Source of the DNA: a virus
Reading direction: 5' to 3' (one strand)
Virus record (IMG/VR): IMGVR_UViG_3300000405_000056
Coordinates: 1 to 23,257 of that record
Length of the DNA stretch: 23,257 nt
In this document: piece by piece, positions 1,571-2,895 of the stretch
Layout of the letters: each line of letters starts with the position of its first letter
How positions within the stretch are numbered: position 1 is the stretch's first letter
Notes under the pieces: model-generated
Database searches by the model: none
What the model saw: only the letters and a program-made list of their open reading frames with translations
Told to the model about the DNA's origin: nothing
Position numbers and translations under genes: made by a program

Positions 1571-2065
1571 TTATTTGTTAAAAAGTTCTAATTTATAAGC
1601 TTCAATATCAACCACTTTAGCCCAAAAAGGCTTTTCATGACCTTGCAATCTAATCGCTTTGTGAAATTTATGGAAGTAGCCATGTAATTCGTTGTTCTTT
1701 TTTACGCTTTGTTGGTAGTCAAATAGCTCAATAGACTTGTCGAAGCCCACGAATTGCGCTATCGTTGGAGTAGGATAAATGCAATTATCAATTACATAAT
1801 TAACGGCTGCTGCAAGACGATCATCCGACATCTCTAAATCCCTTACACGTCCTAAAAGCACTTGAAAAAAAGATGTTTCAAGCTGCGGAAATGATTGTTT
1901 AATCTTCGCTACTTGTTGAACTTGTACGACTTCGGTACAAGTCTTTTTGAATACGCTAATCTCGTACGCCTCGCCTTTGTTTATCAAAGTGTTCGGCAAG
2001 CACACTTGCAAGTTCATCTTCACTTGTTCCTTCTCTGTTTTTAATAATTCCTGTATTGACTGCAT
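1571..2065 (-). CDS. Putative replication accessory protein, 164 aa
   Basis: I do not recognise a named family with certainty. The segment around residues 85-115 (NYVIDNCIYPTPTIAQFVGF, then a KSIELFDY-type motif) resembles small proteins encoded beside the replication-initiation gene in other Bacteroidetes phages, but this is from memory. It is mostly helical, with no catalytic motif or membrane segment. The ATG at 2065 lies 110 nt inside the upstream 270 aa gene; a second in-frame ATG at 2017 would shorten the overlap. The overlap in a different frame suggests translational coupling, so a helicase-loader or primosome-like role is an inference from context. Confidence 0.55.
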   Translation of the reverse strand: MQSIQELLKTEKEQVKMNLQVCLPNTLINKGEAYEISVFKKTCTEVVQVQQVAKIKQSFPQLETSFFQVLLGRVRDLEMSDDRLAAAVNYVIDNCIYPTPTIAQFVGFDKSIELFDYQQSVKKNNELHGYFHKFHKAIRLQGHEKPFWAKVVDIEAYKLELFNK

Positions 2066-2768
2066 TTGATTTTATTTGTTCGTTAAATACGGCTATGTAC
2101 TTCACGCCGTCAGGATTTGTCTTTCTTAACTTTGTTACAGATAGGAAATTTTTTGCCCAAAAAGCATCCGCCCTGGTTCTTTTGATAATGTCTAAAATAT
2201 TTTCGAATGGCAATTTCTCGATCCTATTCAACTTTTCAATCGTATCCTTCCAATTGTTTATTTGACTTTTTGTCACTGGATGAAGATGAGCTTCAAAAAA
2301 TTTTAAACTCTCGTCAAAAGTTTGCAAAACTTTTTGACTAAATACGAGAGTCTTTACTTTCTCTTTCTCTTTCTCTTTCTCTTCTACTTCTACTTCTACT
2401 TCTACTTCTACTTTCCCTTTCCCTTTCCCTTGTACTTGTAGGGTAGGGGTTAAATTTTTATTTTTCACCCCTAGGCAAGGGGGTTCGGTAGGGGGTTGGC
2501 TAGGGGGTACGGCAGGGGGTTGGCTAGGGTTGGATAAAATAATCCCCGTCTTGTCCTCAAACCCACGAACCTGTGTATCTATACTGTTCACTTGACTCAC
2601 GTATGCGAACTTAGCCATACCTCTTAACTCGTTAGGTTTGACGCCAAGGAATTGCCTATCCAACAAAGCATCAATAAACGCTACTTTGTCAGCATCATTA
2701 TCCAATTCGTTGTACACGTCGAAGTACGACCGAAAGAAATTAAATCCTTTTCTCTTTGTCAATTTCAT
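1956..2768 (-). CDS. Phage replication-type protein with repeat-encoded linker, 270 aa
   Basis: Two folded parts joined by low-complexity sequence. Residues 1-75 (KRKGFNFFRSYFDVYNEL, then VAFIDALLDRQFLG) resemble the N-terminal domain of DUF6291-type replication proteins of Bacteroidetes phages. Residues about 83-137 are a Pro/Ser/Gln stretch, then Gly-Lys, Val-Glu and Glu-Lys dipeptide runs, encoded by the tandem repeats at 2357-2440 and 2479-2526. Residues about 140-270 are helical (NNWKDTIEKLNRIEK, then RADAFWAKNFLSVTKLRK), similar to the C-terminus of DnaD/primosomal initiators. It is first in the minus-strand operon, 12 bp after a leader terminator. A role in replication initiation is likely from family resemblance and position, not proven by motifs. 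Confidence 0.6.
   Translation of the reverse strand: MKLTKRKGFNFFRSYFDVYNELDNDADKVAFIDALLDRQFLGVKPNELRGMAKFAYVSQVNSIDTQVRGFEDKTGIILSNPSQPPAVPPSQPPTEPPCLGVKNKNLTPTLQVQGKGKGKVEVEVEVEVEEKEKEKEKVKTLVFSQKVLQTFDESLKFFEAHLHPVTKSQINNWKDTIEKLNRIEKLPFENILDIIKRTRADAFWAKNFLSVTKLRKTNPDGVKYIAVFNEQIKSNAVNTGIIKNREGTSEDELASVLAEHFDKQRRGVRD
2357..2440 (-). repeat. Tandem hexanucleotide array inside the replication gene
   Basis: Fourteen head-to-tail hexamers, all beginning CTT on the plus strand: four CTTTCT, five CTTCTA, three CTTTCC, two CTTGTA. On the coding strand they give Glu-Lys, Val-Glu, Gly-Lys and Val-Gln dipeptides. Each change of one unit adds or removes two codons without shifting frame, so the array can vary in length by slippage while the protein stays intact. 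Confidence 0.9.
2479..2526 (-). repeat. Four 12-bp tandem repeats encoding a Pro-rich linker
   Basis: Four units on the plus strand: GGGGGTTCGGTA, GGGGGTTGGCTA, GGGGGTACGGCA, GGGGGTTGGCTA. Units two and four are identical. They encode a PSQP/PAVP/PTEP-type linker in the same protein as the hexamer array 39 bp away. Confidence 0.9.
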
Positions 2769-2780
2769 GATTTGTTTAAA

Positions 2781-2864
2781 TTAAAAAAGCCGCCCCAACA
2801 AGGTGCGTGAGATAACCTTGAGAGAGCAGCTTTTGAATAAATTTTTTTGAAGATCTCACGCTTC
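2781..2864 (-). ncRNA. Leader RNA with intrinsic terminator (putative attenuator)
   Basis: From the predicted start near 2864 the RNA opens with a small hairpin GAAG-CGTGAGAT-CTTC (2864-2849). It then has an unpaired A/U-rich stretch and a long terminator-type stem. AAAAGC-TGCTCT and CAAGGT (2834-2815) pair with ACCTTG and GGGGCG-GCTTTT (2804-2785 region) around a 2x2 internal loop, with a 10-nt loop and a run of six T. Several pairs are G.U in minus-strand RNA and would be A.C mismatches in plus-strand RNA, which fixes the orientation. The first hairpin's GCGTGAGAT (2861-2853) is the exact complement of ATCTCACGC in the terminator loop (2813-2805). The stem ends about 12-16 bp before the replication ATG, so readthrough versus termination could control that operon. 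A stand-alone small RNA or a replication-origin element are alternatives. Confidence 0.6.
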
Positions 2865-2870
2865 GAATTA

Positions 2871-2895
2871 CAAATATAACATTAATTATTACAAT
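2871..2895 (-). promoter_or_regulatory. Promoter of the minus-strand replication operon
   Basis: The minus strand reads TATATTTG at 2878-2871, a perfect Bacteroidetes -7 element. It is preceded by ATTGTAATAAT (2895-2885), which differs by one base from the 11-bp box at the three plus-strand phage promoters and has the same 17-bp start-to-start spacing. It ends two bases from the first possible ATG of the divergent protease gene, so the two units may interfere. Confidence 0.65.

Follow-up and report, generated by a model that had tools for sequence, protein, structure and literature searches.

In plasmid copy-number attenuators of the pT181 type and in the kissing loops of RNAI and RNAII, the level of replication protein is set by attenuation or by pairing between loops; there, a separate antisense RNA is made from the opposite strand. 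In the satellite phage P4, the replication genes are kept off because an RNA makes transcription end early (PMC4825925). Its CI RNA (c4 antisense RNA, RF01695) is a phage leader RNA system in which complementary segments lie in one leader and transcription stops prematurely before the replication genes; CI is processed and pairs with the separate sites seqA and seqC (PMC4825925). The putRNA of the lambdoid phage HK022 is a structured nascent phage RNA at the start of an early transcript and suppresses downstream termination through contact with RNA polymerase (PMC9378689). Riboswitches with loop-loop contacts or terminator-embedded aptamers, such as HMP-PP (PMC6478431), combine a 5' leader, a tertiary contact and a terminator that serves as expression platform. 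In Bacteroidota, the small RNA GibS (RF04182) ends in an intrinsic terminator, is about 145 nt long and is largely unstructured (PMC7366714).

The element described here was found in a viral record of 23,257 bases (the whole IMG/VR record, referred to below as the window), which encodes terminase and portal genes and has promoters of the Bacteroidota type; the virus infects Bacteroidota bacteria. It probably acts in cis as a transcription attenuator, within the 5' leader of a phage replication operon. P4 CI RNA is the nearest system in function, whereas architecture, host group and lifestyle differ: in the element, a single 5' hairpin would pair with an intrinsic-terminator loop, all in about 85 nt, it occurs in phages isolated as virulent and it has no Rfam match. 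In contrast to putRNA, the element has a 5' hairpin that can base-pair with the terminator loop. Unlike the plasmid systems, no opposite-strand antisense RNA is indicated, and the asymmetry of G.U and A.C pairs given below favours the sense RNA. In comparison with the riboswitches, the loop contact varies freely by covariation instead of being conserved in sequence, and no ligand candidate was found for the element. Searches of the window and 13 element-bearing loci at the Rfam gathering score gave no match on the element, RF01695 included. Low-threshold matches to GibS (22.1 bits against a cutoff of 115), the PyrG leader and RAGATH-21 were dismissed as chance level. DNA similarity to named phages was not found around the element, nor did searches of an open-access library turn up an account of such an element in Bacteroidota phages. 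The RNA class appears to be unreported, although its functional kind, the leader attenuator, is already known. The features in the window are as follows.

2878-2871, minus strand: promoter -7 box TATATTTG, read directly; Bacteroidota sigma-A consensus TAnnTTTG
2864-2849, minus strand: 5'-terminal hairpin (HP1), GAAG-cgtgagat-CTTC, from the fold
2853-2861, minus strand: M, GCGTGAGAT, the HP1 loop plus closing G, complementary to the terminator loop
2835-2848, minus strand: A/U-rich linker from HP1 to the terminator, read from the sequence
2834-2785, minus strand: terminator hairpin AAAAGCTGCTCTCTCAAGGT-TATCTCACGC-ACCTTGTTGGGGCGGCTTTT, from the fold
2805-2813, minus strand: M', ATCTCACGC, within the terminator loop, perfect complement of M
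2788-2783, minus strand: U-tract of the intrinsic terminator, read from the sequence
1956-2768, minus strand: gene for a DnaD-like helicase loader or replisome organizer of 270 amino acids (PHROG 2514, E = 6.9e-11; PHROG 4880, E = 1.1e-9)

A sequence-only reading of the window had proposed a minus-strand promoter with an RNA start at about 2864. The start predicted here differs by 2 nt: the box TATATTTG matches the consensus TAnnTTTG, which was mapped at -12 to -5 in Flavobacterium psychrophilum (PMC9723704) and is also known for Bacteroidota from another study (PMC7366714), and because the consensus sits at -12 to -5, the RNA is predicted to start at about 2866 with HP1 as its 5' end. Between the box and HP1, the minus strand reads TAATTC. 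No clear -33 element is visible upstream of the box, and a sigma-70 scanner omits this promoter because its consensus does not apply to Bacteroidota. On the plus strand, inspection by eye gave no TAnnTTTG box within the element. The small first hairpin and the intrinsic terminator that had been suggested to end just before the replication gene were recovered as HP1 (2864-2849) and a terminator at 2834-2783, the hairpin of which comprises an outer stem, a 2x2 internal loop and an inner stem (CAAGGT/ACCTTG). The ATG of the replication gene lies at 2768, 14 nt past the U-tract. The promoter, the terminator-bearing leader and the directly downstream gene on the same strand are all present in the window, which is the anatomy of an attenuator.

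The minus-strand RNA folds with -26.1 kcal/mol (z = -3.8), a stability equalled by 0 of 200 shuffles, and the plus-strand fold does not stand out in this way (z = -1.6). The perfect 9-nt complement between the two loops, GCGTGAGAT/ATCTCACGC, also stands as it had been read; a 9-nt complement of the terminator loop is expected in a shuffled 30-nt leader with p = 0.0003, and exactly two copies of GCGTGAGAT are present in the window, at 2805-2813 (plus strand) and 2853-2861 (minus strand). It had further been argued that the G.U pairs point to a minus-strand, gene-sense RNA. The family agrees with this: in its subtype I, the gene-sense RNA has 58 G.U pairs and 9 A.C pairs; for the outer terminator stem alone, the counts are 41 and 0. 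Because G.U pairs outnumber A.C pairs in this way, the sense RNA is considered to be the selected molecule, and a plus-strand reading is disfavoured.

With the replication protein as query, 80 viral loci were fetched. Where the gene or operon starts after a promoter, a common plan was seen upstream in most of them, namely TAnnTTTG, a hairpin with loop M, a terminator with the complement of M, a U-tract and the ATG, all in other sequence. L011 2658, which is nearest to the window element among its relatives, retains GAAGC..CTTC and GGT..ACC; its loop pair is GCATCGGA/TCCGATGC where the window element has GCGTGAGAT/ATCTCACGC, and the two loops still match. This exchange reads as a direct compensatory replacement. 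In an alignment of 10 elements, changes on both sides were observed in 23 of 29 pairs, with a covariation score of 0.65 against 0.22 when shuffled. A larger set of 41 elements was aligned with R1, a covariance model of subtype I that has no loop-loop pairing built in. Here the score was 0.70, compared with 0.23 +/- 0.01 for shuffled and at most 0.20 for slid controls, and both sides had changed in 7/8 pairs of the loop-loop helix; the paired fraction of this helix is lowered to 74% by some elements that are aligned off by one loop column. In subtype I, the HP1 stem, the outer and inner terminator stems and the loop-loop helix all covary. The sequence-only reading had looked to related phages for compensatory changes, and these are seen both in the four helices and in the matching loops of the scans described below.

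The window element is a structural outlier within this family. R1 does not report 2783-2864, the internal loop differs and all 8 nt of the HP1 loop are paired. Since it is not of subtype I and goes unreported by R1, its membership rests on the architecture, the exact loop match and L011 2658, with which it makes up a third, rarer form. The internal loop carries UGAAA/GGAU in subtype I and GGAGG/GCCAAA in subtype II, and in both subtypes conserved non-Watson-Crick positions flank the inner stem; the window element has neither motif. In L026, L032, L041 and L046, an extra small hairpin is present in the linker between HP1 and the terminator (e.g., ACGTTAC..GTAACGT in L032), with compensatory differences of its own.

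Viral contigs were also scanned twice with patterns made of the promoter and the terminator-loop flanks only, which are blind to complementarity. Pattern matches without an outer stem (32/80 and 42/55 loci, duplicates included) were excluded as chance before loop pairing was examined. Of the distinct elements in the two scans, 41 and 8 had an outer stem, and a perfect leader-loop match of 7-9 nt was present in every one of these (41/41 and 8/8, together 49/49). When the leader of one element was compared with the loop of a different one, a match reaching 7 nt was seen in only about 10% and 7% in the two scans, and these arise because some loop sequences recur. The 9-nt match of the window element lies above the family criterion of a perfect complement of at least 7 nt. 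The predicted kissing-loop element, with its covariation, is thus a family trait among related phages. A descriptor of promoter and terminator with a loop energy of at most -12 kcal/mol found 28 elements in 1.46 Mb (both strands of 41 stretches); three shuffled versions yielded 3, 1 and 0. A promoter-free version was rejected as too loose, with 71 real against 22 shuffled matches at the same energy of at most -12.

The geometry was compared over larger sets. The loop-loop helix has 7-9 bp in 76/82 elements and, again in 76/82, it ends at the stem borders with no further pair. The -7 box precedes HP1 in the relatives as well, and in 40 of 57 elements HP1 begins 4-6 nt past TTTG, which places it at about +1. 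The orientation is constant, with promoter, HP1 and terminator in this order, and the first ATG follows 1-61 nt past the stem (median about 20, mostly below 30), so near that no room is left for another promoter. In 45 of the 82 elements, M comes directly after the HP1 stem with about 6 nt on its 3' side, and M' has 2 nt before and 0 after it (0|M|6 with 2|M'|0), and the mirror of this arrangement is seen in 12/82. Such gaps would resemble groove-crossing pseudoknot loops. That both stems leave one end of the loop-loop helix was dropped as a defining feature, since the window element and the A/A class deviate from it.

At least one descriptor match was found in 45 of 55 phage records, which is not a prevalence because most of these records were chosen for holding the element or a relative of the gene; 57 elements were left after six spurious ones had been removed by eye. 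About a dozen phages have two or three elements, each with a different M. The genes that follow are early or replication genes, their functions being partly judged from sequence: replisome organizers, helicases, HNH and NUMOD4-type endonucleases, ParB-like/methylase fusions, primase-like proteins and small unknown proteins. Cultured phages with the element are the Flavobacterium phages hattifnatt9-1, lillamy9-1, 11b and FCV-1 and the Cellulophaga phage phi18:3; in hattifnatt9-1, three elements lie before a helicase, an endonuclease and the replication cluster. The Baltic lytic isolates of the study that reported hattifnatt9-1 and lillamy9-1 were described as virulent, its single temperate phage being a different one (PMC7077304). 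Searches of Bacteroidota host genomes with R1 gave 0/295 and 0/41; these counts are uninformative, as the fast filters also missed a known match in G040, and with filters so insensitive they leave room for the element in chromosomes. In L123, from a Lacinutrix MAG, two tandem elements that differ in their loops are separated by about 750 nt (approximately 820-1640), one of them before a KilA-N-like gene, in an apparently phage-derived region. At L030 1987-2019, a DUF805b RNA (RF02914, 49.5 bits) was found between the ATG and a kissing-loop element that ends 3 nt upstream of this RNA; the DUF805b RNA may be an independent Bacteroidota 5' UTR signal.

Under the preferred reading, the host RNA polymerase would start at about 2866 and make HP1 immediately. 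As the terminator loop emerges, M' would pair with M in the HP1 loop, giving a compact loop-loop helix of 8-9 bp that coexists with the terminator stem; the kiss would thus form in cis during transcription and shape the decision at the terminator. The polymerase would then either stop at the U-tract (2788-2783) and release a folded RNA of about 85 nt or read through into the replication gene, which, with its ATG only 14 nt on and too near for a separate promoter, would be reachable by readthrough alone. The readthrough fraction would set the dose of replication protein, and could respond to a protein, a metabolite, the dose of the RNA or the speed of the polymerase. Related phages carry this module ahead of several early operons. 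The kiss most likely favours termination, because the terminator is conserved in full as part of the structure. The anatomy, the covariation, the strand and the placement before genes are shown by computation on sequence; we infer that the RNA is produced and terminated and that the kiss forms in cis with this effect. The terminator looks strong by itself, so termination may not depend on the kiss, which may instead act in RNA stability or in trans. Kissing loops, a pseudoknot and mutually exclusive folds had all been put forward initially. The kissing or pseudoknot form is favoured, and mutually exclusive folds are not, because the complement stays within the two loops and all stems covary at once. 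Pairing of M with a stem arm, which would make an antiterminator, was rejected because the complement stops at the stem borders. A leader peptide, suggested by AUGAAA in the subtype I terminator, was also rejected; the position at which its frame closes is variable, and AUGAAA is absent from the window element.

Several other explanations were weighed against the cis-acting attenuator. The kissing fold and the conserved internal loop could form a binding site for a ligand or protein whose occupation decides termination, an idea that overlaps with the attenuator itself and is conceivable but doubtful: the sequence-conserved non-Watson-Crick positions beside the inner stem in both subtypes and the regulon-like presence of the module before several early operons of a phage speak for it, whereas the window element lacks both internal-loop motifs, the downstream genes have no metabolite in common and no ligand or protein candidate was found. 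It is unlikely that the terminated leader accumulates as a trans-acting immunity or dose-control RNA, its loops pairing with nascent leaders of the same phage and shutting off replication-gene expression in the manner of P4 CI RNA. Both partners are encoded in each element, so a released RNA can bind nascent copies, the loops differ among the elements of one phage and P4 offers a precedent (PMC4825925). On the other side, M has its pairing partner in the same molecule and thus at high local concentration, Rfam gave no c4-type match and the element occurs in hattifnatt9-1 and lillamy9-1, from the study whose lytic isolates are called virulent (PMC7077304). Cross-pairing has a mean of -3.6 kcal/mol within phages and -4.6 kcal/mol between phages, a difference that does not exceed noise, which leaves address-like selection unsupported and does not separate cis from trans. 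In an extended form, every early operon would have a loop-loop code of its own, and the terminated leader would act in trans on nascent leaders carrying that code; replication would thereby be under RNA-dose feedback, and co-infecting phages with a shared code would be excluded. This form is distinctly unlikely.

The main rival in the sequence-only reading was a replication-origin element. The 9-nt inverted repeat does adjoin a replication gene in an A+T-rich region, and an origin, an iteron or an operator dyad with incidental RNA structure could look like this. Yet elements also stand before helicase, HNH, ParB/methylase and KilA-N genes, one phage may have as many as three, the loop pair is free to drift provided that it matches, and the constant promoter-to-gene orientation with its U-tract and the 58:9 asymmetry disfavour a function at the DNA level, which is now highly improbable. 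That a chance 9-nt match lies beside an ordinary terminator is scarcely credible. Short complements do arise in A+T-rich sequence and weak descriptor matches were seen in shuffles, but the probability of 0.0003 for the window alone, the different matching pair of L011 2658 and the 49/49 of the unbiased sets stand against it, and at the family level the chance reading is refuted.

The timing of early genes in Bacteroidota phages is little understood, and the element is a recurring compact RNA module with clear covariation. Because it is present in cultured phages, it is open to a direct test by single and compensatory mutants. Should the kiss control termination, the module would be a small reprogrammable RNA switch that draws its specificity from 8 base pairs and is suited to the transcription signals of Bacteroidota; action in trans would make it a new kind of dose control in phages.

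The DnaD-like replication protein had no match in a Pfam search. Many relatives of its gene sit inside longer operons without the element directly upstream, and hence the gene does not require the element. A short run of codon repeats, VEVEVEVEVEEKEKEKEK, lies between the N- and C-terminal parts of the gene (window 2330-2450), and similar dipeptide runs are present in other element-linked initiators (SVSVSVSDSDSV in L146 and NVNVNVNV in L182); these runs are possibly fast-changing linkers. The replication gene (1956-2768, minus strand) overlaps the next minus-strand open reading frame (1571-2065) by 110 bases in a different frame (1956-2065).
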